64,000 nt of DNA from assembly GCF_007750855.1 (NCBI RefSeq), contig NZ_CP036291.1, positions 620,001 to 684,000 of the forward strand, written 5' to 3'. The position numbers and the translations under genes are program-made. This document shows positions 29,353 through 55,301 of the stretch, piece after piece; positions within the stretch are counted from its first letter, which is position 1, and the number at the start of each line of letters is the position of its first letter. The stretch comes from Pirellulimonas nuda (GTDB taxonomy: Bacteria; Planctomycetota; Planctomycetia; Pirellulales; Lacipirellulaceae). A model generated the notes under the pieces. The model saw only the letters and a list, made by a program, of their open reading frames with translations. It had not been told where the DNA came from and ran no database searches.

Positions 29353-31383
29353 ATGGCGACTGACTTCTACAAGCGGCAGGACCGGGCCCGGCGGAACACC
29401 AGCTTCTTGGTGCTGTTGTTCGCGTTGGCGGTGATCGGGATCGTGGGCGCCGTGAGCGCCGTGACCTACTTCGTGCTGGTCGAGCAGCAGAGCACGCTTG
29501 CGCCGCTGGCCGGCGGGTACGACGCGATGGGGCGGCCCGAGTCGTTCCGCTGGGACGCGGTGGTCGGCGCCGGCGTGCTAACGCTGGCCGTGATCCTTGG
29601 CGCCAGCGCCGTGAAGGGGGTCCAGCTCCGCTCCGGCGGGGGCGCCGGCGTGGCCGAGCACCTGGGCGGGATGCGGCTCTACCCCAACTCCGGCGGCGTT
29701 GTCGAGCAGCGGCTGCTGAACGTGGTGGAAGAAATGGCGCTGGCCTCCGGCGTGCCGGTCCCCCCCGTGTACCTGCTCGAGGACGAACAGGGCATCAACG
29801 CCTTCGCGGCGGGCTACTCTCCCAGCGACGCGGTGGTGGGGGTCACGCGCGGCTGCGCCGAGACGCTCAGCCGCGACGAGCTGCAGGGGGTCATCGCCCA
29901 CGAGTTCAGCCACATCCTCAACGGCGACATGCGGCTCAACATCCGCATGATCGGCTACCTGCAGGGGATCTTGCTGCTGGGGCTGATCGGCCAGTGGCTG
30001 TTCCGCGCGTTCATCTACAGCGGCGGGGGCAGCAGGCGTTCCAATAGCCGCGGCTCGGGCGGTTCTGGGGGATCGGCCATCCTGGTCGTCTTGGCCGTCA
30101 GCCTGGCGTTGATCGTGCTGGGGGCGCTCGGCTCATTCATGGGGGGGCTCATCAAGGCCGCCATCTCGCGCGAGCGCGAGTACCTGGCCGACGCGTCGGC
30201 GGTGCAGTTCACCCGCAACCCGGGGGGCATCGGCGGCGCACTCAAGCGGATCGGCGCGGCGGTCACCGGCGGCCGGCTGAAGGCGCCCGCGGCCGCCGAG
30301 GCGAGCCACATGTTCTTCGCCACCGGGGTGTGGGAGGGGCTCTCGGGGCTGACCGCCACGCACCCGCCGCTCGAGAAACGGATCTTGGCGATCGAGCCCG
30401 ACTGGAACGGGGTGTTCCCCGAAACCCCCGCCGCTGGCCAGGCGGCCTCGGCGGTCGGCGCCGCGGGCGCCATGGGTTTCTCTGGCGGCCTCTCTGTTGC
30501 GGCAGCCGCGACGGTTGGCGCCGCGGGCCGCCCGGCGGAAGGCTCGGTGCCGCTGGACGTGGTCGACCACGCCGCCGAGCACATCGGCGCCCCGACCCGC
30601 GAGCACCGCTCGTACGCCCAGCGGCTGATCGAGTCGCTGCCGGAAGAACTGATCGACGCGGCCCACGAGCCGTTCGGCGCGCGGGCGGTGATCTACGGCC
30701 TGCTGCTCGACCGCGACCCGGCGGTGCGGAAGGCGCAGCTCGCCGGCCTTGCCCAGGGCGCGGAGGCGCCCGTCCGCGAGCTGATGCACAAGCTGCTGCC
30801 GGCCATCGACGCGGTCGACCACCGAGCCCGCTTGCCGCTGGTCGACATGACGCTGCCGGCCCTGAAGTCGTTGAGCACGCCGCAGTACGTCGGCTTCGGC
30901 AACTGCCTGCGGCTGCTGGTCGAGGCGGACCAGCGGCTGGGGCTGTTCGAGTGGACCCTCGGCCAGGTGCTCTCCCGCCACCTGCGGCCCCAGTACGAAA
31001 AGGTCCGCGCCCCCGCGGTGCAGTACTACGGCTTGCAGAAGCTGGGCGCCCAAGTGGCGCAGGTGCTTTCTACGCTGGCGTACGTCGGCGGGGACGACAC
31101 CCAGGCGTCGGCCGCGTTCTCGGACGCAAGCTGCCACTTCCCAGAGCTGGACGTGCGGTTGCTGCCCCGCGACCAGTGCTCGCTCACCGCGCTCCGCGGC
31201 GCGCTCGACACGCTCACCCACGCCGCGCCGAAGCAGCGGGGCAGGGTGGTCGACGCCTGCGCCGCGGCCATCTGCACCGACGGCGAGGTGACGCTCCGCG
31301 AGGCAGAGCTGCTCCGCGGCGTTTCGGACCTGTTGGACTGCCCCATGCCCCCGCTGTTGGCGGGACAGAAGGTCGCCCCGTGA
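29353..31383 (+). CDS. M48 family (HtpX-like) membrane metalloprotease
   Basis: A 676-residue protein with two N-terminal membrane helices (about 18-42 and 72-88), the zinc motif HEFSH at 183-187, further membrane segments (about 200-215 and 235-265), and the downstream EREYLADASAVQFTR, where E and D complete the M48 site. The C-terminal ~280 residues are an extra helical domain not found in HtpX (for example DAAHEPFGARAVIYGLLLDR). Its end (DACAAAICTDGEVTLREAEL) resembles TerB-type repeats. With LemA it probably forms a membrane quality-control pair. Its stop overlaps the start of epmA. Confidence 0.9.
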   Translation: MATDFYKRQDRARRNTSFLVLLFALAVIGIVGAVSAVTYFVLVEQQSTLAPLAGGYDAMGRPESFRWDAVVGAGVLTLAVILGASAVKGVQLRSGGGAGVAEHLGGMRLYPNSGGVVEQRLLNVVEEMALASGVPVPPVYLLEDEQGINAFAAGYSPSDAVVGVTRGCAETLSRDELQGVIAHEFSHILNGDMRLNIRMIGYLQGILLLGLIGQWLFRAFIYSGGGSRRSNSRGSGGSGGSAILVVLAVSLALIVLGALGSFMGGLIKAAISREREYLADASAVQFTRNPGGIGGALKRIGAAVTGGRLKAPAAAEASHMFFATGVWEGLSGLTATHPPLEKRILAIEPDWNGVFPETPAAGQAASAVGAAGAMGFSGGLSVAAAATVGAAGRPAEGSVPLDVVDHAAEHIGAPTREHRSYAQRLIESLPEELIDAAHEPFGARAVIYGLLLDRDPAVRKAQLAGLAQGAEAPVRELMHKLLPAIDAVDHRARLPLVDMTLPALKSLSTPQYVGFGNCLRLLVEADQRLGLFEWTLGQVLSRHLRPQYEKVRAPAVQYYGLQKLGAQVAQVLSTLAYVGGDDTQASAAFSDASCHFPELDVRLLPRDQCSLTALRGALDTLTHAAPKQRGRVVDACAAAICTDGEVTLREAELLRGVSDLLDCPMPPLLAGQKVAP

Positions 31384-44791: not shown

Positions 44792-44865
44792 GCGCCCGTA
44801 GCTCAGCTGGATAGAGCAGCGGACTTCTAATCCGCAGGTCGTTGGTTCGAGTCCAACCGGGCGTG
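44792..44865 (+). tRNA. tRNA-Arg (anticodon UCU)
   Basis: A 74-base cloverleaf: acceptor GCGCCCG pairs with CGGGCGT (one G-T), D arm GCTC/GAGC, anticodon stem GCGGA/TCCGC with loop CTTCTAA (anticodon TCT), T arm GTTGG/CCAAC with TTCGAGT loop. CCA is not encoded. The 3' part from the anticodon loop onwards is duplicated at 55257-55301 because an element is integrated here. Confidence 0.97.
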
Positions 44866-44867
44866 CT
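44823..44867. other. attL core, tRNA-Arg 3' half
   Basis: This 45-base sequence, from the anticodon loop to two bases beyond the tRNA, is perfectly repeated at 55257-55301. The flanking bases differ on both sides. The intact tRNA gene lies on this side. The integrase gene reads into it. Confidence 0.95.
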
Positions 44868-46113
44868 CAGAAAGGCCTTGTTTTAGAGTCTTTCGGCGAC
44901 GCTGCTCCGGCGGGTTCTGTTCAGGTGAACAGCTAGTGTCCACCGAAGTGTCCCCCAAAGCGGTCCAAAGCTCGGCCGCGGTCGCCGCTGCGTTCTGTCC
45001 GACGTAGAACGTCAACGTCGTTTCTACGGACGCGTGCCGCATTAGCTCCTTCAAAGTCGCCGGCATCACCCGCCGCGACCACCGGAAGCCAAACGATCGG
45101 CGCAGGTCGTGAGCTGATGCCGTCTTCCCTTTCTCCGGGTCCGTGACCACCCCCGCGGCCTTGCCTAGGGCGACGATCATCTTCCCGATCTTGAGCGGGT
45201 GCCTCGCCATCACCCCTTCGCCCCGAACCCGCTGAACGTTGAACACGAACCCAGTTTCCTTCCGCAGCGGCGCCAAGAGCTGGACGGCCTCGGGCGCCAA
45301 TGCCACAAGCTGCACCTTGCCCGACTTCTGTGAGCCGGCATCGAACACGAGAACGCTCTGCTTGCCGTCTAGACGCACGCTAACGCCACCGGGCTGATGG
45401 TCCCACCGCAACGCCAGGGCCTCGCCTAGACGCAAGCCAGACGTCCACAGGCCGCGTAGAAGCAGCTTCCACGACTCGGCCGCCTTGGCGCCCACGACGC
45501 CAGGGACAGCAGCGATCAGCCGGTCGAACTCTTCGCCGGTGATCGGTCGCCCCTTCATCTTCGCGGCGACGCCCTTCTTCGGCATATCGAACGATGGAAC
45601 CTTGGGCAGAATCCCTTGGCGGTTCGCCCACCGCGCCACGGCCTTGAGCTGGCGCAGGTGACGTCCGACGCTGGCCTCCGTCAACCGGTACTTCTGGACG
45701 GTCGGCTTCTCGTCGGCCTTGCCCTTGATCTCCCGCGTCCGTTCCTTCCGCAGCTCAGCGGCAAACGCCGAGATCCGCGCCGTCGTCAGGTCCGCCACGC
45801 GCCGGGGTCGGCAAAGCTGCTCAAACGCGTTCAAGGTCGACGCGTAGTTTCTCAGCGTCGCCGGAGTGACGGTCGGCATCAATTGCGTCTCGTACTGCTC
45901 ACGCAGCTCGTCCCACGGCATCCTAGCGGTTCGCTCGTACCTTCCGGCCTGTAGCTCGCCCTCCCACTTGGCGGCTTCCTTGGCGGCTTGCTTCGGCTTG
46001 TCGGTGCCGGTGCTGCGAGACTCTTCTTTGCCGGTCAGCGGGCAGCGGTAGCGCATGTAGAGGAATCGCCTGCCCTTGTCGACCACGTAGACGCGAATCT
46101 TGTCGTCCATCAC
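44827..46113 (-). CDS. int: Tyrosine recombinase/integrase
   Basis: A 428-residue integrase. An N-terminal SAM-like DNA-binding part is at about 55-160. The catalytic domain shows Arg in GLWTSGLRLGEALALRWD, HDLRRSFGFRW (H-x-x-R), His in LMRHASVETTLTFYVG and Tyr in FYVG. The last 12 residues (HARLDSNQRPAD) and the stop are encoded by the att core, i.e. tRNA sequence; since the stop is inside the core the C-terminus is the same in the integrated and circular states. The gene starts at 46113 next to a small intergenic region. Confidence 0.95.
   Translation of the reverse strand: MMDDKIRVYVVDKGRRFLYMRYRCPLTGKEESRSTGTDKPKQAAKEAAKWEGELQAGRYERTARMPWDELREQYETQLMPTVTPATLRNYASTLNAFEQLCRPRRVADLTTARISAFAAELRKERTREIKGKADEKPTVQKYRLTEASVGRHLRQLKAVARWANRQGILPKVPSFDMPKKGVAAKMKGRPITGEEFDRLIAAVPGVVGAKAAESWKLLLRGLWTSGLRLGEALALRWDHQPGGVSVRLDGKQSVLVFDAGSQKSGKVQLVALAPEAVQLLAPLRKETGFVFNVQRVRGEGVMARHPLKIGKMIVALGKAAGVVTDPEKGKTASAHDLRRSFGFRWSRRVMPATLKELMRHASVETTLTFYVGQNAAATAAELWTALGDTSVDTSCSPEQNPPEQRRRKTLKQGLSEHARLDSNQRPAD
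44936..44960. promoter_or_regulatory. Putative integrase arm-type site, left
   Basis: GTGTCCACCGAAGTGTCCCC and the following CAAAG match 55143-55166 at 22 of 24 positions in direct orientation. Each copy holds two GTGTCC units. This copy is 69 bases inside the attL core, in the integrase coding region. Confidence 0.5.
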
Positions 46114-46181
46114 TCACCCCTTGGTTGTTGAGCACAAACAACCCGGCCGCCCCTCCCTGGGCAGCCGGGCATGATCTCGAA

Positions 46182-46535
46182 TCACCTAGGCTTCCAAACG
46201 TCGCCTAGGTCGGGCAGCGTCAACGCGACTAGCAGCGTGTGCATCGCGTCGAACGAAGCGACAGACCTACAGGTCCGCCCCTTGCAGCTCACGCGGACCA
46301 TCAAGTGCGTGAGACGATCGATATGGCCCTCGCCGCGCAACCGTGCGGAGATGGCCATCGGGTCCATCGTCGGCGCCGGCGTCTTGCCAGTCGCCTGCAC
46401 AAGCATTTGGCGAAGCGACAGGTCTAGCGCGTGCTGTAGCAGCGGCCAGGCGTCCGTGATCCGGCCGGCGCCGCGCTCATCAACCGCGGCCCTCAGCGTC
46501 GCGGCCAGCTCGTTCCGTGTGGTGGAAACACTCAT
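46182..46535 (-). CDS. Hypothetical element protein
   Basis: A 117-residue soluble protein starting MSVSTTRNELAATLRAAVDE, helical in the first half (LLQHALDLSLRQMLVQATGK), with cysteines near CKGRTCRS. AGGAC precedes the ATG at 46535, and the open frame upstream has non-coding character, so this start was chosen. It lies between the integrase and the hairpin array. I do not recognise a family. Confidence 0.6.
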   Translation of the reverse strand: MSVSTTRNELAATLRAAVDERGAGRITDAWPLLQHALDLSLRQMLVQATGKTPAPTMDPMAISARLRGEGHIDRLTHLMVRVSCKGRTCRSVASFDAMHTLLVALTLPDLGDVWKPR

Positions 46536-46594
46536 CTTGCGAATGTCCTTTCCCGTCCGCTCCAGCCTTCGAAGGGCCAGCCGGACGAACCCTC

Positions 46595-46701
46595 GGGCCC
46601 GGTAGCGCGCTTCGAAAGGGGCAGCAGGGCTCCCCCCGCCAACGTCTTGCTCCCCGCCTACGCGGATCATCGCTTGTGCGTTGGCACACGCTACCGGGCC
46701 C
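46595..46701. repeat. 13-base perfect inverted repeat with 81-base loop
   Basis: GGGCCCGGTAGCG (46595-46607) and CGCTACCGGGCCC (46689-46701) are perfect complements. A second pair, GCAGCAGGGC and GGCCCTGCTG, overlaps it. The region 46536-46960 has no convincing gene and lies upstream of the 117-residue protein gene, so structured RNA or regulatory DNA is possible. Confidence 0.55.
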
Positions 46702-46960
46702 AAAGGCCCTGCTGATGGTGAACATAGAATCCCTGCACTTCTGCCAGTTGATCGGCGGCAAGGTTTCGAAGGCCCGGCCGCCAGGCCCCGGGTATCGGGG
46801 GCTTGGCAGGCGTAATTGTGCCGGTGGGCGTCCCAAAATGTCAACAGAGGAAAAACGGCCGCACCAGACGTCGCTGGTGACGCTCCGGCGGGCAGGTTGG
46901 TGTCTAAGGTCGTCTGGCGGGGGCGTGCGTTATTCGGGCTGCTAGGGGCTCGGGGCAGGA

Positions 46961-47222
46961 AGTGAACCAAATTCGGTTCACTTGTTGCCGCCGCGTTCGC
47001 CCGCGAGGCTCGCTATTAAGCATCGTTTCCCAAACTTGGGAAACGATGGTGCCCTTCGCGTGCCCGCGAGGCTCACCGGAGATAAATGCAATCCTGCACT
47101 TAATTCGATTGACTCCCTTCGCGTGTGCGCGCGAGGCTCGCCTAAGTGGGGTGGTTCCACCCCACTTCCTCCTACGCGTGCCCGCGAGGCTCACTTTTGC
47201 AACAAAACGAAAGGTTGCAAAA
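46961..47222. repeat. Array of conserved 20-nt repeat alternating with unrelated hairpins
   Basis: Hairpins: 46961-46982 (AGTGAACC stem), 47021-47048 (CATCGTTTCCCA stem, 12 bp), 47083-47102 (TAAATGCA, one mismatch), 47145-47168 (AAGTGGGGTGG, 11 bp), 47194-47222 (TTTTGCAAC, 9 bp). Between them lie four copies of a repeat of type CGCGTGCCCGCGAGGCTC, with cores at 47001, 47064, 47129 and 47182 (spacing 63, 65, 53). The hairpins share no sequence, only the ability to pair. No protein is plausible in any frame. Confidence 0.75.
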
Positions 47223-47330
47223 TCTTGCAAAACCTTGTCGAGCGATTGCTGCGTGACGCCAACCTGTAACCGTTACAAGTAGCCCCGGCGCGGCCGTTCA
47301 CGCACTGACCACCGGGGCACGCTCAGGTTG

Positions 47331-47516
47331 TCAAACAGCGTCCGCGTAACTGATCTCGGCCACCTTCACCACGGGGATCTCCGCATCTACAGCGTTCTCG
47401 GCCTCAGCTCTCGTCAATTGGAATAGCGATCGTCGGCGCCGCCGCTCCGCCGGGCTCCAGGTCGCCTGGAACGCCAAGCACGCCGCCTCGATCTCTTCCG
47501 GGCTCGGGTCGACCAT
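47331..47516 (-). CDS. Small phage-type hypothetical protein
   Basis: A 61-residue protein starting MVDPSPEEIEAACLAFQATW, followed by SPAERRRRR. The pattern 'EIEAACLAFQATWSPAERRRR' is common in short proteins of phages. It overlaps the upstream gene by 113 bases in a different frame, so one of the two ends is probably altered. It lies just after the hairpin array (in gene order just before it). Function unknown. Confidence 0.5.
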   Translation of the reverse strand: MVDPSPEEIEAACLAFQATWSPAERRRRRSLFQLTRAEAENAVDAEIPVVKVAEISYADAV

Positions 47517-47793
47517 CCTGGCTCCGTGTTGGTGTTCTCGTCAGAACCGTCTGGCCCATGCGCGCCGTCACCGCTTGGAAGCCGGCGGCAAAGTCCAACC
47601 GGTCGGCCGGTAGCTGGCAGATCTCGACAGCGAACCCTTCGGCCTCGGCGTCGGTCAGCATCCCCAGCTCTATCGCGGTCTGCATGGCGTCCAGGATCAT
47701 GTCAGCGCCCTCGATAACCCCGCCGTCGACGTCGAGGTCACCGCAAAAGTAGTCGTAGGCTCGCATCCTGATCGCGTGAATCGGGTTGTCCAT
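47404..47793 (-). CDS. Hypothetical protein following the tape-measure gene
   Basis: A 129-residue open frame starting MDNPIHAIRMRAYDYFCGDL. The first ~95 residues look like a real acidic helical protein (ILDAMQTAIELGMLTDAEAE). The tail (RPEPGRDRGGVLGVPGD) is the out-of-frame image of the next gene and is probably not native, which suggests that the original stop was lost. The ATG overlaps the tape-measure stop (TAATG), so translation is coupled. Function unknown. Confidence 0.5.
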   Translation of the reverse strand: MDNPIHAIRMRAYDYFCGDLDVDGGVIEGADMILDAMQTAIELGMLTDAEAEGFAVEICQLPADRLDFAAGFQAVTARMGQTVLTRTPTRSQDGRPEPGRDRGGVLGVPGDLEPGGAAAPTIAIPIDES

Positions 47794-49523
47794 TACACGC
47801 CCACCAGCGGGTTGGGCTTGTCCAGGTTCCGCACGCCCTTTTTGATCTCACGCAGTTCGCGAAGCTGAGCGTCGCCGGTGCTGCCAAACTGCTGGCCAGC
47901 GAAACGCGTGTCGAAGATGGCGGCCTGGTTGCTGGTGCCGAACGCCCCGGCGGATTGAGCCCCCTCGACCGCGTCTGCGATCGCCTGGACCTTGTCCGCA
48001 ACAACAGCGTGTGCGTCGGCTACTGTGGTCCCCAACAACTCCGCCCCGGTGGCGAGCTGCGCCCCGAGGTAGTTGCCGCCCTTGACCATCGCGTCGCCGA
48101 TCTTCTCCGTGAGCCACGTCCCGGCGCCCTCGATCTTCTGCTCTACCGGTGCGGCCGTCTGCTGCGCCGCGGACAACTGGCCACGGAACGCAGCGATCTT
48201 GGCCAACCGGGCTTCCGTGGAGGCGATGTTGCCGCTGATCGCCCTGGTAGCCTCGCCACCGATGCCGCGGAGCCGACCGTCTAGGTTGTTCGTCTGGTAG
48301 AGCTGCTTGTCGAGAATAGCCTTTTGCTCGGCCAGGCCCTTACGCAAGATCCGCTCTTCCTCGTCCAGGTCCGCAGCGATCGAGGCTTTACGCTTCTCGA
48401 ACTCCTCAGCCGGCCCACCGATCGCGGCGTTTAATTCCGCAGACCGCTTCTTCTCGTTCCGCCAGTCCGTGTTAGCGGAGATCTTCCCCAACTCGGCGTT
48501 GAGCTTGCGCAGGTCGACCAACAGGGCGGCAACGACAACAGCCACGCCCGCGAACGCCGCGATCAGCGGGTTGGCGATCAGGAACGCCGAGGCCGCCGAG
48601 ATAGCTGTCAGGCCCGCAGCGATGCCGGGAAGCGCCGCCCCGAACGTGATGGCGGCCGGACCCGCGACAGCAAGCGCCGCCCCGAGATAGCCGACCGTCT
48701 TGACCACCCCGGGGTTCTCAGTCGACCACTTCGCCAGGCCCTTCACGACGTCGCGGATCTTGCCGATCATCGCCGTAGCGGCCGGGAGGAAGTTCATTCC
48801 GATCTCAGTGGCGTAGTCGCTGATCTGCGTCTTCAGCCCCTTCATCTGGTTGGCGAAGCTGCCGGCCGTCCGCAGCGCGTCACCTTGTGCGTCCGTCGTG
48901 CCCGCCAGGATGATGGCAAACCGAGCGAACGCCCTTTGAGCCTCGGTGGCGAACTTGGGGTCGATGTTCGTATTGAGCAACTCCTGCTTGACGGCTGCCT
49001 CGCTGACGATGACGCCGTACTTTTTCATGACCTCGCCCGAGCCCGTGAGCGCCGCCGTCAGGTCACGCTGTACGTCCGCGTCGGTCATGTTATTGAAGCT
49101 GGCCAGGTCGATCGACAGCTCGGTGAGCTTCTTCGACAGGTCGGCCGCTTCGTTGGGCATCACGCCCATCGGCTTCAGTAGATCCTGGAAGCCGGCCGCG
49201 GCGCCGGCGATCTCGTACTTCGAGCGGCCGAGGGCCAAAGCCAACTCGTCACCCCAGCGGCGGATTGCCGGGGCCTGATCGCCAAATACTACGCCGAACT
49301 TGGACAGCGTTTCCTCGGCGTCGGACGCCTTGCTGATCGCGGCGACCAGGGGCGCGGTGATCGCTGCGCCGGCGGCCGTAGCCACCCGGCCCATCGTCTG
49401 GAAGCCGGAGCCGATCGTTCTCAGCTTCTTCTGCAAAGTGCGGAGCCCCTTGTCGACGGGCCCGGTGAGCAAACTCATCTCGATGACGGCCTTACCGGCC
49501 CGCAGTGCTCCAGCGCTTGCCAT
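47793..49523 (-). CDS. Phage tail tape-measure-like protein
   Basis: A 576-residue protein with the TP901/lambda-type tape-measure start: LRTIGSGFQTMGRVATAAGA, KASDAEETLSKFGVVFGDQA, then FQDLLKPMGVMPNEAADLSK and LTAALTGSGEVMKKYGVIVS. Two hydrophobic stretches (about 275-310 and 318-345) resemble the membrane-active parts of tape measures. A coiled coil is at about 380-450. Tape-measure proteins set tail length and help DNA pass the membrane. It is short for this class and no other tail gene is recognisable, so its present role in this element is open. Confidence 0.9.
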   Translation of the reverse strand: MASAGALRAGKAVIEMSLLTGPVDKGLRTLQKKLRTIGSGFQTMGRVATAAGAAITAPLVAAISKASDAEETLSKFGVVFGDQAPAIRRWGDELALALGRSKYEIAGAAAGFQDLLKPMGVMPNEAADLSKKLTELSIDLASFNNMTDADVQRDLTAALTGSGEVMKKYGVIVSEAAVKQELLNTNIDPKFATEAQRAFARFAIILAGTTDAQGDALRTAGSFANQMKGLKTQISDYATEIGMNFLPAATAMIGKIRDVVKGLAKWSTENPGVVKTVGYLGAALAVAGPAAITFGAALPGIAAGLTAISAASAFLIANPLIAAFAGVAVVVAALLVDLRKLNAELGKISANTDWRNEKKRSAELNAAIGGPAEEFEKRKASIAADLDEEERILRKGLAEQKAILDKQLYQTNNLDGRLRGIGGEATRAISGNIASTEARLAKIAAFRGQLSAAQQTAAPVEQKIEGAGTWLTEKIGDAMVKGGNYLGAQLATGAELLGTTVADAHAVVADKVQAIADAVEGAQSAGAFGTSNQAAIFDTRFAGQQFGSTGDAQLRELREIKKGVRNLDKPNPLVGV

Positions 49524-49591
49524 GGCAATCCTTTGTAGTTTGAAGTTTAAAACGCCCGGCCGCCGGGAGGTTGGCCAGCGACCGGGCTAAT

Positions 49592-49615
49592 ACCCGCGGA
49601 GGGAAGAACCGCGGG
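49592..49615 (-). terminator. Possible terminator after the coiled-coil gene
   Basis: CCGCGG pairs with CCGCGG around TTCTTCCCT on the minus strand, just downstream of the gene ending at 49623. A second weak inverted repeat (GCCCGG...CCGGGC) follows. No T-run is present, so the assignment is tentative. Confidence 0.3.
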
Positions 49616-49622
49616 GCGTTTG

Positions 49623-50342
49623 TTACAGTGTCAGCATCTCTCGCCGGTTCTCAGCCGCAGCCAGGCGAACGTCCACCAGCATCTTGCCGACGAGGTCCGC
49701 CTCTTGGTCCCAGTTGCCAAGCCGCCAGGCGAGCAAGGTCCGACCGGGTTCTACGGCAGACGCAATCGACTCCTTCAGCTCTTTCCGCTTCGAGTCGATT
49801 GACTTGCAATAGGTGTCGAGAGTCGTCCCAACGCGATTCAGAGCCGTCCCCTTCTGCTGCAACTCGGGGGGGGCAGTGGCAATCAACTGGTTGTCGAGCA
49901 CCTCGGGCGTCGCCATCTTCGCCTGTACGGCGGCACGCTCTTCCCGCAGCGGCTTCGTGCGAGACTTCACGTCTTCCACGGTGCGTTCTAGCGTCGAGGT
50001 CAGGTCGCCCAACTTGGCGAGCAACTTCTCCCGCTCGGCTTCGAGCTTGGCGTTCGCCGGTCTGCCGTCTGCCATCGCGTCGACAACAGCTTCCTCGATT
50101 TCCGCCAGCCGGTCGCGGATGGTGGTCGTCTCCGTCTTGTGGCGAGCGACCGCGGCTTCGCTCTCCCGCTCGAACCCGTCGATGGCGGTGGTCAGGTCCG
50201 CTTTGCGGCGACGCAGCAGCCCGTTGGCTGCAATCAGTCTCTTCAGCCGCTTTCGCTCGGCGGCACGCTCGGCGTCGGTCGAAGTGTGGTTGCAGCTTGG
50301 GGGAATCACAATCTTTTCGTCGGTGGGGGTGGTCCAGAACAT
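49623..50342 (-). CDS. Long coiled-coil element protein
   Basis: A 239-residue protein dominated by coiled coils (about residues 25-150; for example ERAAERKRLKRLIAANGLLR and AEREKLLAKLGDLTSTLERT). The first 20 residues (MFWTTPTDEKIVIPPSCN) are distinct. It is probably structural. The position directly upstream of the tape-measure gene is that of tail assembly chaperones in phages, but the sequence does not resemble them. The ATG at 50342 is three bases from the stop of the preceding gene. Confidence 0.75.
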   Translation of the reverse strand: MFWTTPTDEKIVIPPSCNHTSTDAERAAERKRLKRLIAANGLLRRRKADLTTAIDGFERESEAAVARHKTETTTIRDRLAEIEEAVVDAMADGRPANAKLEAEREKLLAKLGDLTSTLERTVEDVKSRTKPLREERAAVQAKMATPEVLDNQLIATAPPELQQKGTALNRVGTTLDTYCKSIDSKRKELKESIASAVEPGRTLLAWRLGNWDQEADLVGKMLVDVRLAAAENRREMLTL

Positions 50343-50345
50343 GGG

Positions 50346-51011
50346 CTAGCCTCTTGATTGCTTGATGCGTTGAAAGTAGTTATTGGCGTCGCGTTCAAAG
50401 GCGTCGATGTACCCCGTCGGTGGCGTCACGCTCTCCACCTTGGCGAACGTCCAATTCGCCATCCGGTCGGGCTCGTCGCCTAGCGCCGCGGCGTAGACCT
50501 GGGGTGCAGCCAACTGGTAGTCGAGTCCGGCGACGCGCAGGTCCTCGATGTCGACCACGCAGCCCGCCAGCTTCGCCCGATGGTGCAGGTGCAGAACGCG
50601 GCGAATCCACAGGATGCCGTGACCGTCCCACGGGGGCAGGTCAAACGTTCCTTCCCAAGCCACAGCAGCCCGCAGCCAGTCGTCACCCGTGGCGTCAAAA
50701 GAGCCGCCAGCGTCGTCGTAGGTGCCCGCCTCGATAGCCTCAGCAGCAGCGACCGACTCGGGACCGTCGACCGGCAACAAATGCGCTAGCTCGTGGAGCA
50801 ACAGCCCGGCGTCGGGCTCCCGGGCGAAGAGGATGGTCGGGATTTGGTCGTCCGCTAGGTCGAAGTGTTCCGCGATACGGGGTCCAGCACAGGGACGTGC
50901 GTAAGCCAATGCGTAGCCCGTGTGCCACTCCTCGGGGTGGCGACCGATGAACAGCTCTTTCAGCTCGGGGGCGACCATCTCCGCCAGCCGATAACACTGG
51001 CTGATTTTCAT
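50346..51011 (-). CDS. HELAH-motif putative zinc protease-like protein
   Basis: A 221-residue soluble protein with HELAHLL at about residues 93-99 and a possible third ligand among the downstream acidic residues (ESVAAAEAIEAG). The first part, MKISQCYRLAEMVAPELKEL, is helical. Phage-like elements often carry such HExxH proteins of unknown role. The start at 51011 overlaps the previous stop by four bases (ATGA). Confidence 0.7.
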   Translation of the reverse strand: MKISQCYRLAEMVAPELKELFIGRHPEEWHTGYALAYARPCAGPRIAEHFDLADDQIPTILFAREPDAGLLLHELAHLLPVDGPESVAAAEAIEAGTYDDAGGSFDATGDDWLRAAVAWEGTFDLPPWDGHGILWIRRVLHLHHRAKLAGCVVDIEDLRVAGLDYQLAAPQVYAAALGDEPDRMANWTFAKVESVTPPTGYIDAFERDANNYFQRIKQSRG

Positions 51012-51241
51012 TCCTCACCCCTCGGGGCAGAGGCAGCGGTCGGATAATGGCGGGGCACTCCGCGAATCTCGTGTTGGGGCAGAGTCTTGCACTTCACCCA
51101 ACGCTCGCCCTCCGCGTCGACCCGCCATTCCTGGATGGTCGTTCCGTTGATGACTGCGCCCATGGGCAGGTCCGCCTCACGTAAAAACTCCCACTCGCAT
51201 TCGTTGGTCACGGCTTCGGCCTCGGGGTGATTGTTCATCAT
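51008..51241 (-). CDS. Small hypothetical protein
   Basis: A 77-residue soluble protein starting MMNNHPEAEAVTNECEWEFL; a second ATG at the next codon may be the true start. It contains GAVINGTTIQEWRVDAEGER, a possible small beta-fold. It overlaps the HELAH gene by four bases. Function unknown. Confidence 0.6.
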   Translation of the reverse strand: MMNNHPEAEAVTNECEWEFLREADLPMGAVINGTTIQEWRVDAEGERWVKCKTLPQHEIRGVPRHYPTAASAPRGEE

Positions 51242-51247
51242 TGGAAT

Positions 51248-51457
51248 CTACCAAACGCCTAGGTCGTCACTGCCACAGTCTGGCAACGACAACACGATGT
51301 AAAGCTGGCCGCAGCGTTTGCACACTCGCCGCGATGTTCTGCCGCCGTCCGCGTCCCGCCAGCCTTTAATGCCGATGTACTTCAGCTCGCCGCAGGTCGG
51401 GCAGGTCGGGAGCCTAACCTCGACCACAGGGACGGTATCCCACGTGCTTTTTTTCAT
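51248..51457 (-). CDS. Small zinc-ribbon protein
   Basis: A 69-residue protein with two CxxC pairs, CPTCGE (about residues 19-22) and CKRCGQ (about 46-49), spaced as in a zinc ribbon. It begins MKKSTWDTVPVVEVRLPT. Such proteins in phages bind DNA or partner with Mu-type Com proteins; this assignment is not secure. It overlaps the next upstream gene by four bases. Confidence 0.7.
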   Translation of the reverse strand: MKKSTWDTVPVVEVRLPTCPTCGELKYIGIKGWRDADGGRTSRRVCKRCGQLYIVLSLPDCGSDDLGVW

Positions 51458-51804
51458 TGGTCGTCACTCCACAACAACGGCTTGGGGTCGCGTAAGGCTC
51501 GCAGGCTCTCCGCCAGGTCACGCCCGGTGTCGGTCAGGCGTAGGTGAGTTACACGCCCACCCCTCGCACGGTAGGCGTCTAGAAAGCCGGCGTCGGCAAG
51601 CTGCTCGGCGGCTCGAAGGAATCGCCGCTGCTCGGTCGCGGTCAGGTTGGAACCCCAGAAGTCTGGTCGGACGCGGGGTCCGTGCTCTAGCTCGGTCGTC
51701 TGCTCGAGGTAGTCCGAAGCCCACAACGGCAGCCGGGGCTCAGCCTCTAGGGCTTCGGTGCGGCACAGCATTTCGACGAGGATTCTTTTCTGTTCTGGGG
51801 TCAT
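51454..51804 (-). CDS. Small winged-helix-like protein
   Basis: A 116-residue protein starting MTPEQKRILVEMLCRTEALE; a GTG start at 51828 would add eight residues. TATEQRRFLRAAEQLADAGF and VTHLRLTDTGRDLAESLRAL look like a winged helix-turn-helix. It may regulate transcription of the element. It is the first gene of the minus-strand block 51828-46182. Upstream (51805-52087) is a non-coding stretch of about 280 bases. Confidence 0.6.
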   Translation of the reverse strand: MTPEQKRILVEMLCRTEALEAEPRLPLWASDYLEQTTELEHGPRVRPDFWGSNLTATEQRRFLRAAEQLADAGFLDAYRARGGRVTHLRLTDTGRDLAESLRALRDPKPLLWSDDQ

Positions 51805-52087
51805 TTCTTGTCCGTCCGATTGAATCACTACCTACAAAATTGACACTTCTGTTGCACCAGTGCTGGCGAGAGGTCGTAGAAGTCCCTTGACCATTTTCAA
51901 AACGTGTTGGGTCCTGGAAAAAAGAGGCACGCCACCCCGGGGCCAGACAGAAGTGCCAAGGTTTGCCACACACTAGATAGCTCGCCACAGTCCCTAGCGT
52001 GCCGCTGGTGACGTTGCGTTGGTTGTTGGTGTTCTGAGTCATGGTGATGGTCAAGCGTGCGTTGTGCGTTGCGTGGTGCGACGTGCG

Positions 52088-52192
52088 CTAGTCAGGCTCC
52101 GGCTCGTCGTCTGGCTCGTCTTGCTCCGGCTGGGGTTCGACAGGGGAGTCGTAGGGGCTGCTGTAGGGGCTGCTGTAGGGGGAGTCGTACAC
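52088..52192 (-). CDS. Possible 34-residue acidic repeat peptide
   Basis: From GTG 52192 the frame reads VYDSPYSSPYSSPYDSPVEP, followed by an acidic tail (QDEPDDEPEPD). YSSP is repeated in tandem, as is the DNA (GGGGCTGCTGTA). It follows the gene ending at 52208 by 15 bases. No clear ribosome binding site is present. It may be real, or only the trace of a tandem repeat. Confidence 0.3.
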   Translation of the reverse strand: MYDSPYSSPYSSPYDSPVEPQPEQDEPDDEPEPD

Positions 52193-52207
52193 GGCTGGCT
52201 CGGGTGG

Positions 52208-52468
52208 TTAGAACGGGATGCTGGTGGTGTTGTGCTTCAACTCGGCGGCCTCACGCTGGAGGTCAACCGCGATCTGCTCCCTCGCCACCTTGGGGCAGTT
52301 GTGCGTGCCGGGTAGCTCGTGCTGGCCACCGAGGTAGTCCAGGCGATCGAGCCTGAGTGCCCGATACGGGTTGTCGTGGCTCCAGGTCTTAGCTTTGGCG
52401 ATCATCTTGGCGATCTCTTCTCGGGTGAAGGTTGCTTCTATCGGTGCTGGGGGGTGGTCGGTTCTCAC
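52208..52468 (-). CDS. Small hypothetical element protein
   Basis: An 86-residue charged protein starting at GTG 52468 (MRTDHPPAPIEATFTREEIA), with AAGGAG upstream. Helical segments: EIAKMIAKAKTWSHDNPYRA and KVAREQIAVDLQREAAELKH. The first codons overlap an iteron-like repeat. Function unknown. Confidence 0.6.
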   Translation of the reverse strand: MRTDHPPAPIEATFTREEIAKMIAKAKTWSHDNPYRALRLDRLDYLGGQHELPGTHNCPKVAREQIAVDLQREAAELKHNTTSIPF

Positions 52469-52590
52469 TTCTCGAATCCCTCAAAACTCCTTCCGACCGG
52501 GGGGGGGTGGGTGGTCTCCCTTTAGGGGGACCACCAACACCCCCGTGGTCGGGGTGGTCGGGGGGGTGGTCGGTTTCAATCGACCACCCC
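52451..52590. repeat. Iteron-like GGGGTGGTCGGTT repeats and hairpin beside the replication ATPase
   Basis: GGGGTGGTCGGTT occurs at 52451-52463 and 52563-52575. Partial copies lie at 52509, 52544 and 52551, and inverted copies at 52526 (GGGGACCACC) and 52581 (CGACCACCCC). The region lies directly at the 3' end of the RepA-like ATPase gene. This could be a plasmid-type origin, or a terminator with slipped repeats. The GGGGTGGTCGGGG runs could also form a G-quadruplex. Confidence 0.5.
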
Positions 52591-54066
52591 CTCTGTAGGG
52601 GCAAGCGCGTACTCGTTAGTGGTGTTCCCGTTGGCGTCCGTCTCGCCGGCAATGATGGTCCCTCGCTTGAGCATCAAGCCGATCAGACGGGCCATCCGGT
52701 CGCGGCTGAACCCGGTCGCGTCGCGGAGCTTCCTGGTAGTCGCCGGACCACCAAGCAGGGCCGAGGCGATCTCCGTCATGGCCTCCTGGTCCTTCTCCGT
52801 CTGGCGTTGTTCACCACCGGTCAGCCGACCCTTGAGCTTGGAGGCGTCCAGGAGCGCATCGGGCCGCCACAGCGGGAACTCCCACCGAAGCGTGACGGGC
52901 TCGATCGGGGCGAAGGATCGGACGGCAGCGTCTAGGACGACCACGCCGGGTTCTTCGTGCTCACGGAGCACTAGGTGGCAATCCGCGGCCCGTGATTGGG
53001 CACCAGCCCCGGCCCCTACGTCCGTGGTCCGCTTGCCGGACTGATCGCCCTTGCTGGTGTGATGGATCATCACCAGGGCGGACTGCGTCTTCTCTGCGAT
53101 CCGGTCAAGCAGGTTATAAACCTGGGTCTCGGCCGCGTTGTCGTTTTCACTTGCCCCGGGCTCGATGAATCTATATTTGGCGTCGAAGAGGATCGCCCGG
53201 TAGTAGCCGGCCTCGATCGCCTCTAGCTCGCCGGCCAATTGCTGGAGCGACTTCAGGTTGCCCCGCAGCGGCCAGACGTCTAGCTCGCCCTGATAGTCGT
53301 GAGGCTCGATCCCCATAGCTTCCGCCACCAGCGGGATACGATGGGCCAGCGTGCTACGGTGTAGCTCGTTGTCGATCAGCAACACGCGGCCGCAGTGCGT
53401 GTCGAAGCGATCGAGCCAGCGACGCCCAGTGATAATCGACAACGCCAGGCTGTAACCCAACCAAGACTTGCCGACCTTGCTCATGCTGATCAAGTTGACC
53501 GTCTCGCCCTGCCGGCAGAGCCCGTCGATAACCGCTGGATTCAATCGCGGGTGAAGCTTCAGCAGCTCCCCGAGGTCGAACTTCTCCACCCCGCGGCGTT
53601 TGACTCCCGGCTCACGCTGGAAATCGTCCAACGCGGCCAGCATGTCGTTGAGCACGGCCTGAGACGTGCTGCCGTTTAAGGCGTCCTGGGCGGCCGTCTG
53701 GGCCAGGTCGTAGAGTTGCCGCTTGCGATCCGCCTCGACCACCAGCCCCGCGTAATAGGGCACGTCTAGGGCGTGTGGCGTGTCGTCCATCGCCAACGCC
53801 AGGAACGCGGCGGCCTGTTCACCCAACGCGGGGGATTTCTTCACCTCCCGGAGCACCAGCCCGATGTCGAGCGGCTTGCCCGAGCTGCGCTGCTGGAGGA
53901 TCGCGAGAAAGGCGTGGCGGTGTGCCGGGTCGCTGAAGTGGCGCGGCCCGACAATCTTTAACGCCTTATCGATTGATTCCGAGTCGAGCAACATGCCGCC
54001 GATCAGCAGTCGCTCCGCTTCCGTCGCGGTGGGTAACGTCGGCTCCGCCGAGGGGGACGCTTTCAC
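52576..54066 (-). CDS. DnaB-N / RepA-like AAA ATPase, probable replication protein
   Basis: A 496-residue protein starting at GTG 54066. Residues ~12-110 resemble the DnaB helicase N-terminal domain (TEAERLLIGGMLLDSESIDK). Residues ~165-420 form a RecA-like RepA/AAA_25 ATPase with Walker A SMSKVGKSWL, Walker B AILFDAKY and the MIHHTSKG motif. A C-terminal winged helix follows (TRKLRDATGFSRDRMARLIG). It resembles replicative hexameric helicases of plasmids of RSF1010 RepA type. It is probably the replication initiator or helicase of the element. It overlaps the preceding gene by four bases (GTGA). Confidence 0.85.
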   Translation of the reverse strand: MKASPSAEPTLPTATEAERLLIGGMLLDSESIDKALKIVGPRHFSDPAHRHAFLAILQQRSSGKPLDIGLVLREVKKSPALGEQAAAFLALAMDDTPHALDVPYYAGLVVEADRKRQLYDLAQTAAQDALNGSTSQAVLNDMLAALDDFQREPGVKRRGVEKFDLGELLKLHPRLNPAVIDGLCRQGETVNLISMSKVGKSWLGYSLALSIITGRRWLDRFDTHCGRVLLIDNELHRSTLAHRIPLVAEAMGIEPHDYQGELDVWPLRGNLKSLQQLAGELEAIEAGYYRAILFDAKYRFIEPGASENDNAAETQVYNLLDRIAEKTQSALVMIHHTSKGDQSGKRTTDVGAGAGAQSRAADCHLVLREHEEPGVVVLDAAVRSFAPIEPVTLRWEFPLWRPDALLDASKLKGRLTGGEQRQTEKDQEAMTEIASALLGGPATTRKLRDATGFSRDRMARLIGLMLKRGTIIAGETDANGNTTNEYALAPTEGVVD

Positions 54067-54308
54067 TTGGAGCCCTCCCCGGGGGCGACTGCGATAGAGA
54101 AAACGTCCGCCAGCAGAACGCGGGAGGTCGTTGCCCTGATCTTTCGCCGAAGGTTGCCGTAGTGAATGAGCCCTTGCGTGTCGTGCGGGCCCATCCCCAT
54201 GCATTGCAGGGCAACCGACAGCTCACTGATGGCAGCAAGCGCCCTCTCACGCTGATCTTCAGAGACGGGAACGGTGGGGAATTGCTGGGCTGTTTTGGTG
54301 GTGTTCAT
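54063..54308 (-). CDS. Small hypothetical protein
   Basis: An 81-residue soluble protein starting MNTTKTAQQFPTVPVSEDQR. It is helical in the middle (RALAAISELSVALQCMGMG). Overlaps of four bases with both neighbours put it in one operon with the excisionase-like gene and the ATPase gene. Function unknown. Confidence 0.6.
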   Translation of the reverse strand: MNTTKTAQQFPTVPVSEDQRERALAAISELSVALQCMGMGPHDTQGLIHYGNLRRKIRATTSRVLLADVFSIAVAPGEGSK

Positions 54309-54550
54309 TGCTCGCCCCCCACTTCCAGCTCGGCGAGCTTGGCGGACAACGTCCGAAGCCACTCAATGCCGTCGGCGCCTTGGATGTAGACGCGTTTGCC
54401 GACAGTGAACGTCGGAAGGGGGACGCCAAGCAACTTGGCTTCGTGGATGCGCGTCTTCGAGACGCCAGCGGCCTTGCACCAGGCTGCCAGGGGGTAGCAC
54501 GCTTCGGGGTGAAGCGGCTGCGTGTCCTTCGCGTAGGCGGTAATCGCCAT
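54305..54550 (-). CDS. Excisionase/AlpA-type helix-turn-helix protein
   Basis: An 81-residue protein starting MAITAYAKDTQPLHPEACYP. YPLAAWCKAAGVSKTRIHEAKLLGVPLPTFTVGKRVYI fits a MerR/excisionase-type winged helix (the sequence is a 'helix-turn-helix, wing with K/R-VYI' pattern). Such proteins direct excision or regulate integrase. GTAGGAGAG upstream of the ATG is a good ribosome binding site. It leads the replication operon. Confidence 0.75.
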   Translation of the reverse strand: MAITAYAKDTQPLHPEACYPLAAWCKAAGVSKTRIHEAKLLGVPLPTFTVGKRVYIQGADGIEWLRTLSAKLAELEVGGEQ

Positions 54551-54578
54551 GGCCAGACTCTCCTACGGGGTTCTTTGT

Positions 54579-54607
54579 GTAATCGCACCAAACGGGGTGC
54601 AATTCAA
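54579..54607 (-). promoter_or_regulatory. Possible promoter of the excisionase-replication operon
   Basis: On the minus strand, TTGAAT (54607-54602) and GATTAC (54584-54579) are separated by 17 bases, close to a sigma70-type promoter, about 30 bases upstream of the start codon. The spacer holds GCACCCCGTTTGGTGC, an inverted repeat that could be an operator. Tentative. Confidence 0.35.
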
Positions 54608-54653
54608 ACCACGTAGTTAAGTTTGCCGGAAAGACGGCTATGGGTCGGTCGCT

Positions 54654-54669
54654 AACGGTATATACCGTT
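54654..54669. promoter_or_regulatory. Perfect 16-base palindrome, probable operator
   Basis: AACGGTATATACCGTT is a perfect palindrome with an AT-rich centre, typical of a dimeric repressor site. It lies two bases beyond the stop of the 121-residue wHTH-like gene and about 105 bases upstream of the excisionase-like gene. Confidence 0.55.
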
Positions 54670-54670
54670 C

Positions 54671-55036
54671 TCAGGCTCGCTTGTAGCCGCGATCTCCCTT
54701 AACCGGCACCAGAACGCCACGCGCTTTTAGCTCAGCTAGGCGTAGCTTGATCGATCCCTCAGAAGCGATCTCGCCATCTTCTGCGAGCTTGTCGAGAAGG
54801 TCGGTCTGTGATTTCACGGAACCGTGATTGTCAATGCAATCGAGGATCATTTCGTCGACTGCGGTAAGCCGGACCGCAGGCGCAGGCGGTTTGATTTTCT
54901 CCGCTGCGTCCACAATCCAGCCGCGGGTGACGTTGTTGCCACCACCGCGGAAGAGCGACTCCCGCACTTGTCGCAACTCCTCGTCGGTGAACGGAATGTC
55001 AACCGGATCAACAGTACGCCGTGGGGCTTCGCCCAT
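54671..55036 (-). CDS. Small wHTH-like protein, possible repressor
   Basis: A 121-residue protein starting MGEAPRRTVDPVDIPFTDEE. The C-terminal part (about 55-121) resembles a winged helix-turn-helix (AVDEMILDCIDNHGSVKSQT, SIKLRLAELKARGVLVPVKG). AAGGA lies ten bases upstream of the ATG at 55036, so this start is preferred over a TTG at 55057. Its place at the right end of the element fits a regulator of maintenance. The palindrome directly downstream could be its operator. Confidence 0.65.
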   Translation of the reverse strand: MGEAPRRTVDPVDIPFTDEELRQVRESLFRGGGNNVTRGWIVDAAEKIKPPAPAVRLTAVDEMILDCIDNHGSVKSQTDLLDKLAEDGEIASEGSIKLRLAELKARGVLVPVKGDRGYKRA

Positions 55037-55065
55037 TGAGAATCCATCCTTTTCCAACCCGACCC

Positions 55066-55095
55066 CCGCGGCGCCAAGGATGGTAGGCGCCGCGG
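55066..55095. repeat. Inverted repeat CCGCGGCGCC / GGCGCCGCGG
   Basis: Ten-base perfect arms with a ten-base spacer in the region upstream of the gene starting at 55036. It is a candidate operator or a structural part of the element end. Confidence 0.45.
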
Positions 55096-55142
55096 TGATC
55101 GACGGGGGTAGCTACTCCCCCTAGTTGGCTTCGAGTGCCTTG

Positions 55143-55166
55143 GTGTCCACTAAAGTGTCCCCCAAA
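55143..55166. promoter_or_regulatory. Putative integrase arm-type site, right
   Basis: GTGTCCACTAAAGTGTCCCC plus CAAA matches 44936-44959 at 22 of 24 positions and lies 90 bases inside the attR core. Both contain two GTGTCC units. Confidence 0.5.
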
Positions 55167-55256
55167 TCGCTCTGGACCACTTATCCCAAAGCGTTGGGAG
55201 GCACGTTTTCTCCGCTACTTAAATATAACGGAATCCAAACGGTTGTACAAATTGAC

Positions 55257-55301
55257 ACTTCTAATCCGCAGGTCGTTGGTTCGAGTCCAACCGGGCGTGC
55301 T
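55257..55301. other. attR core
   Basis: A perfect 45-base copy of 44823-44867 (3' half of tRNA-Arg). It lacks the 5' half of the tRNA, so it is not a gene. It defines the right end of the integrated element. Confidence 0.95.

Follow-up and report, generated by a model that had tools for sequence, protein, structure and literature searches.

Alternating linkers and palindromes in a tRNA-Arg element of Pirellulimonas nuda: a candidate row of protein-binding sites beside an ncRNA-integrase module

An array of linkers and palindromes in an integrated element

What purpose could be served by a mostly noncoding block (46540-47330) in which a short conserved repeat alternates with palindromes that differ from one another? 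The block lies in the window, i.e. the whole stretch of 64,000 nucleotides of Pirellulimonas nuda DNA that was analysed. The initial annotation regarded it as an array of boundary and palindrome units within an element at a tRNA-Arg gene, and this is confirmed by the coordinates and by exact 45-bp direct repeats, which represent the 3' sequence of tRNA-Arg(tct) and delimit a 10.4-kb integrated element. The main genes of this element are located on the minus strand and comprise, besides those named below, unknown genes and further small genes.

44792-44866, tRNA-Arg(tct)
44823-55301, integrated element of 10.4 kb, bounded by the direct repeats 44823-44867 and 55257-55301
44827-46113, minus strand, tyrosine integrase (phrog_1)
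46182-46535, minus strand, small ORF between the ncRNA and the integrase gene, no family found
46584-46716, minus strand, structured ncRNA (model R1), between the array and the integrase gene
46815-46844, minus strand, promoter-like site TTGACA-N18-CACAAT, likewise placed in the related locus L177 (L177:9074)
47793-49523, minus strand, tail tape-measure-like protein (phrog_28)
52510-52591, two further palindromes at the 3' end of the DnaB-like helicase gene, alike in their ends (GGTGGTC..GACCACC) but not in their centres
52576-54204, minus strand, DnaB-like helicase

Among the proteins of the element that were searched, none could be assigned to a capsid gene, and the element may therefore be a phage satellite or remnant. 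The array within it consists of four linker copies of the CCTTCGCGTGCCCGCGAGGCTC type alternating with five palindromes (H1 to H5).

46960-46983, palindrome H1, AAGTGAACCAAATTCGGTTCACTT, arms AAGTGAACC-AAATTC-GGTTCACTT, extended outer stem 46954-46989
46990-47013, plus strand, linker copy 1, diverged
47021-47048, palindrome H2, CATCGTTTCCCAAACTTGGGAAACGATG, arms CATCGTTTCCCAA-AC-TTGGGAAACGATG
47053-47076, plus strand, linker copy 2, CCTTCGCGTGCCCGCGAGGCTCAC, the reference copy
47083-47102, palindrome H3, TAAATGCAATCCTGCACTTA, arms TAAATGCA-ATCC-TGCACTTA, one mismatch, weakest of the five
47116-47140, plus strand, linker copy 3, 2-nt insertion
47144-47167, palindrome H4, AAGTGGGGTGGTTCCACCCCACTT, arms AAGTGGGGTGG-TT-CCACCCCACTT
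47171-47194, plus strand, linker copy 4
47195-47222, palindrome H5, TTTTGCAACAAAACGAAAGGTTGCAAAA, arms TTTTGCAAC-N10-GTTGCAAAA, 10-nt loop

The four copies of a repeat of about 20 nt that had been noted at intervals of 53-65 bases hold in their coordinates: the linker core CGCGAGGCTC starts at 47002, 47065, 47130 and 47183, giving a spacing of 63, 65 and 53 bp. The accompanying statement that the five hairpins share no sequence stands for their inner parts, which differ, and fails for their outer ends, as AAGTG..CACTT bounds H1 and H4 and, one mismatch aside, also H3; the ends of H2 and H5 are unlike it. Most of the palindromes have short loops and Watson-Crick paired stems, and their G+C content is 42%, as against 75% in the linkers and 63% in the whole element. 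To the right of the array, a possible sixth short palindrome (CTGTAACCGTTACAAG, 47264-47279) has AACCGTT at its centre, which resembles the centres of the palindromes in ParB-like genes (see below), and it is followed at 47279-47343 by a dispersed intergenic repeat (GCCCCGGCGCGGCCGTT..CCGCCGGGGC..GGTTGTCAAACAGC), of which the genome holds at least five other copies that are 82-92% identical (C1:1519000, 3649667, 3153987, 3488361 and 3152262).

A repeated motif of 18-24 bp, palindromes that are richer in AT than the GC-rich element around them and a DnaB-like helicase encoded by the same element are features that would suit a replication origin or packaging site, in which the linker acts as an iteron and the hairpins are structural parts. 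However, the helicase gene is 5 kb from the array, the spacing is irregular and no initiator was identified; moreover, the linker is unique to the array among 396 genomes of the order, and because of this there are no relatives across which it could be compared. This explanation is thus considered improbable.

The array exceeds chance and three of its palindromes are unique in the genome

The array is far beyond chance, since four stems of at least 9 bp occur in 46940-47260, while 2000 dinucleotide shuffles yielded none (1918 shuffles), one (80) or two (2). Even when up to three mismatches are allowed, the 6.62-Mb genome contains no second copy of H1, H2 or H4; the proposed check for REP sequences from elsewhere in the genome therefore did not identify them as such. 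Inspection of 1.29 Mb, about a fifth of the genome, for clusters of at least three stems revealed one besides the array, namely a run of near-identical REP-like CATGCCCACGC..GCGTGGGCATG sequences. The genome has its own REP-like family of this CATGCCCACGC..GCGTGGGCATG type, located at L203:17408 and L373:5009.

Neither did the array recur elsewhere as a whole. Searching the 396 genomes of the order with the linker-pair pattern produced no second array (two chance pairs lacked palindromes), and blastn detected no homologue of the array in 97 relatives, 50,697 phage records or 72,556 plasmid records; weak blastn matches in the own genome were rejected as they represent the dispersed repeat described above. 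The exact 18-mer of the linker has 29 scattered single matches in public genomes and none in the viral contigs, and the one planctomycete match that was read (L023) was rejected as a second array, being coding sequence. H2 and H4 were not found in the viral contigs, and H1 recurred in three phage contigs as a terminator complete with T-run, which is deemed a coincidence. These viral-contig results consequently provide no support for the capture of sites from the sampled phages.

With a block of minus-strand genes on one side and the promoter-like site of the ncRNA-integrase operon on the other, the array is placed as would be expected of a transcription insulator, i.e. a row of hairpin terminators shielding this operon from read-through from the tail-like operon. 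Yet no terminator-like site was detected by a scan of 46940-47260 and no T-runs follow the stems, for which reason a cluster of intrinsic terminators was rejected, and insulation would leave the conserved linker unexplained. We consider such a role as improbable as that of an origin.

A structured RNA family adjoins the array

The ncRNA that lies 240 bp from the array has a promoter-like site upstream and measures about 130 nt, with a long closing stem, inner hairpins and a conserved GATCC..GGGGAGCAAG core. Its covariance model (R1) has 34 matches (E<=0.01) in 21 of 147 relative genomes, with up to six copies per genome (G014), the loci including L237-L266 and L196. In an alignment of 29 sequences, 96.4% of the pair cells are standard and 33 of 37 pairs have changed on both sides, although these pair counts lean towards structure because the sequences had been aligned to the model; the covariation score is 0.738, compared to 0.207 for shuffled and at most 0.144 for slid alignments. 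Frames downstream of many R1 loci resemble tyrosine recombinases, as judged by eye except for five tblastn matches. No Rfam family was matched, and R1 is well supported as a new RNA family linked to integrases in mobile elements. A different hairpin-type sequence occurs upstream of the integrase at L193:2400-2510 and L195:2520-2625, where GCTGCGCGGG and a long closing stem are shared, and is possibly a second RNA family.

The presence of a true structured ncRNA so close by raises the possibility that the array is itself transcribed from the minus strand, its hairpins serving in a multi-hairpin RNA as domains or as spacers. Single hairpins indeed fold much better than shuffled sequences (z-scores of -6.6 for H1, -6.2 for H2, -1.9 for H3, -4.1 for H4 and -3.7 for H5), and the mismatch in H3 becomes a G-U pair on the minus strand. 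Against this, the only promoter-like match is situated downstream of the array on that strand, the array matches no Rfam family, its stems are nearly all Watson-Crick with mostly very short loops, and the comparable palindromes of ParB-like genes exhibit no wobble preference in their mismatches. Furthermore, a search for RNA covariation would need homologues of the array, and none was found. An RNA function is therefore regarded as unlikely, if somewhat less so than an origin or an insulator.

Related elements and recurrence of the design

It had been suggested that related tRNA-Arg elements would retain the layout and exchange the hairpins. This applies to the closest relative, L177 (integrase 67% identical, same tRNA-Arg), which in the corresponding interval, approximately 1.9 kb upstream of int, carries three other, different palindromes, and to some others, as palindrome clusters are also present close upstream of the more distantly related integrases of L186, L193 and L195. 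It does not apply to L178 and L179 (integrases 61-64% identical), where no palindrome cluster was found within 2.5 kb upstream of int, and the feature is therefore not obligatory. Across the 2.5 kb upstream of 21 related integrases, the density of palindromes (stem score >=10) is 0.53 per kb, versus 0.20 per kb in random DNA of the own and related genomes (800 kb). L177 additionally contains a CRISPR array (L177:5683-6742; Rfam CRISPR-DR16) about 1.3 kb upstream of its palindromes.

For a scan, the design was defined as two palindromes that differ from each other, lie 35-110 bp apart and share a conserved 14-nt flank. In 0.47 Mb of integrase- or ncRNA-linked DNA the scan retrieved L193, L251 and the window array, and none was found in 0.80 Mb of random chromosome or in 0.70 Mb of viral contigs. 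Matches at window position 29848, L186, L140 and L166 are probable false positives that look coding or like ordinary repeats, and the match in L177 is the CRISPR array. In L193, palindromes centred on AGAATTCT are followed by GCCCATCGACACCC; in L251, TGTCCGCAATTGCGGACA and TGTTGCCCATGGGCAACA are each followed by AATCTTAACAGAG; and in L262, three units were recognised by eye (GTATCGCATGCGATAC, GTGTCGGATTCGACAC and GTCGCCCCGGGGCGAC), the sequence after them being similar. The window integrase and the L245-type protein were not found in the viral contigs.

The palindromes of L193 and L263 are positioned within genes or gene fragments (partly duplicated coding sequence), and those of L251 are beside and in a ParB-like remnant. 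Such cases are in keeping with the array being a tandem relic, each unit of which is the functionless leftover of a duplicated HTH-gene segment that had carried a palindrome, and translation of the linker gives xRAREA(H/R), in frames that differ between copies. The 63/65/53 spacing, however, breaks the frame, and symmetry was kept during divergence, which is not expected of neutral decay. A decayed protein gene, which the initial annotation had named as a refuting outcome, was sought and no relic was found: Pfam yielded nothing for the ORFs of the array up to an E value of 1, nor do they have a homologue in the first batch of fetched loci or in the integrase-linked loci. This origin of the array is consequently also unlikely, marginally more so than an RNA function.

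A ParB-like family with a palindrome after the HTH

A search with the L263 protein led to a family of ParB-like proteins from plasmids (L267-L271 and L356-L364) and from the best 80 of 492 viral contigs (ParB-like loci L276-L355). In 54 of 93 genes a palindrome (stem score >=9) was present within the 120 nt just after the HTH, as opposed to 5 of 372 control segments taken from the same genes. These palindromes have semi-conserved outer ends, TCACT..AGTGA or TATCT..AGATA, which differ from the ends in the window array, and their centres are variable. Genes that are alike in the HTH tend to be alike in the palindrome centre (partial r 0.215 with the N-domain controlled for and a permutation p of 0.0005, over 61 genes whose palindromes are distinct), the correlation being 0.31 for the recognition helix, 0.08 for the N-domain and -0.04 for the peptide downstream of the palindrome, and strongest for helix residues 131-133 and 135. 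Among the pairings of helix and centre are DHKTV with the GGGAATTCCC type, SHPFV, SHTFV or SQPFV with AACG(G)TT, and HHEMV with GGCGG..CCGCC.

In 27 pairs with like helices and N-domains less than 65% identical, the mean palindrome similarity is 0.56 versus 0.36. Identical residues in the like-helix pairs use the same codon only 35% of the time, and recent common descent of the gene segment is therefore unlikely. Loops of 0-1 nt are seen in 39 of the 61 palindromes, and stem mismatches are without wobble bias (2 GT, 3 AC and 13 other); short loops and the absence of a G-T preference thus point to DNA sites rather than RNA. The simplest reading of these sequence relationships is that each palindrome is a putative binding target of the protein to which the adjacent HTH belongs. 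The literature titles and abstracts listed contained nothing relevant on hypervariable palindromes, on parS inside parB or on int-linked RNA.

The window array resembles this family in part: most of its dyads have short loops, the centres vary while the ends are shared by three of the five palindromes, and the setting is a mobile element. The ParB-gene palindromes, in contrast, are intragenic and each has a recognition helix as its counterpart, whereas the array is noncoding and has no adjacent HTH gene; a search of the own genome, run without a positive control, found no ParB-like gene of this family. Anatomy and location are the grounds on which the array may be placed in the same class.

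A putative function of the array

The comparison favours protein-binding DNA dyads for the array. Our preferred, though tentative, explanation is that its palindromes, lined up next to the ncRNA-integrase module, are dyad-symmetric sites for protein binding and differ in specificity. The array would have been built from a duplicated unit of about 60 bp, a GC-rich linker plus a palindrome, of which the linker was conserved and the inner parts of the palindrome were replaced with their symmetry kept. It would function at the DNA level, in that its palindromes may be bound by dimeric proteins with an HTH, of a ParB-like or repressor-like kind, that this and other mobile elements encode, and this binding may control, insulate or partition the adjacent module, several different sites allowing response to, immunity from or exploitation of several proteins. 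We infer both the binding and its effect. The anatomy of the array, its uniqueness, its position by the ncRNA-int module, the recurrence of the design and the covariation in the ParB family all argue for binding sites. Conversely, the five palindromes are not bindable by one protein, the loop of H5 measures 10 nt and the stem of H3 contains a mismatch, L178 and L179 are without clusters, no second linker array exists among the genomes searched, the ends are unlike those of the ParB family, and no partner gene was found.

A broader and more doubtful proposal, which we nonetheless rate above the alternatives considered in the preceding sections, is that these loci form a new class, namely banks of palindromic binding sites in mobile elements with interchangeable specificity. 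Centres would be swapped between linkers, often together with a matching recognition helix, and the element would thereby recognise, exploit or be immune to several competitors. If the binding-site reading is right, mobile elements carry in their own DNA a record of how fast their DNA-binding specificity turns over: in one gene family the recognition helix adjoins its target, and elsewhere targets are gathered in arrays. Such a record would amount to a natural code table from HTH helices to their targets and may be a basis of compatibility or immunity between elements.

Comparison with known systems

Several known arrangements have features in common with the array. REP/BIME elements are likewise clustered intergenic palindromes, but the palindromes tested here are unique in the genome and differ among themselves, and this identity was rejected. 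A CRISPR also alternates a conserved repeat with unrelated segments at a spacing of about 60 bp; its near-identical repeats of at least about 23 nt and non-palindromic spacers contrast with the short and diverged copies (71-96% over 24 nt) and palindromic spacers of the array, and no Rfam CRISPR match was obtained in the window, so that the initial view that this is not a CRISPR is upheld. The same annotation was right to set integrons aside. As in attC arrays, structure is kept while sequence varies and a tyrosine recombinase is nearby, but a reading of the sequence disclosed no RYYYAAC/GTTRRRY core sites and no cassette genes between the units.

Operator and centromere arrays, such as parS, KorB O_B and phage operators, place within one element several palindromes that dimeric HTH proteins bind, at distances of tens of bp. 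Those arrays repeat one and the same site, whereas in the window array the site differs from unit to unit and it is the linker that repeats.
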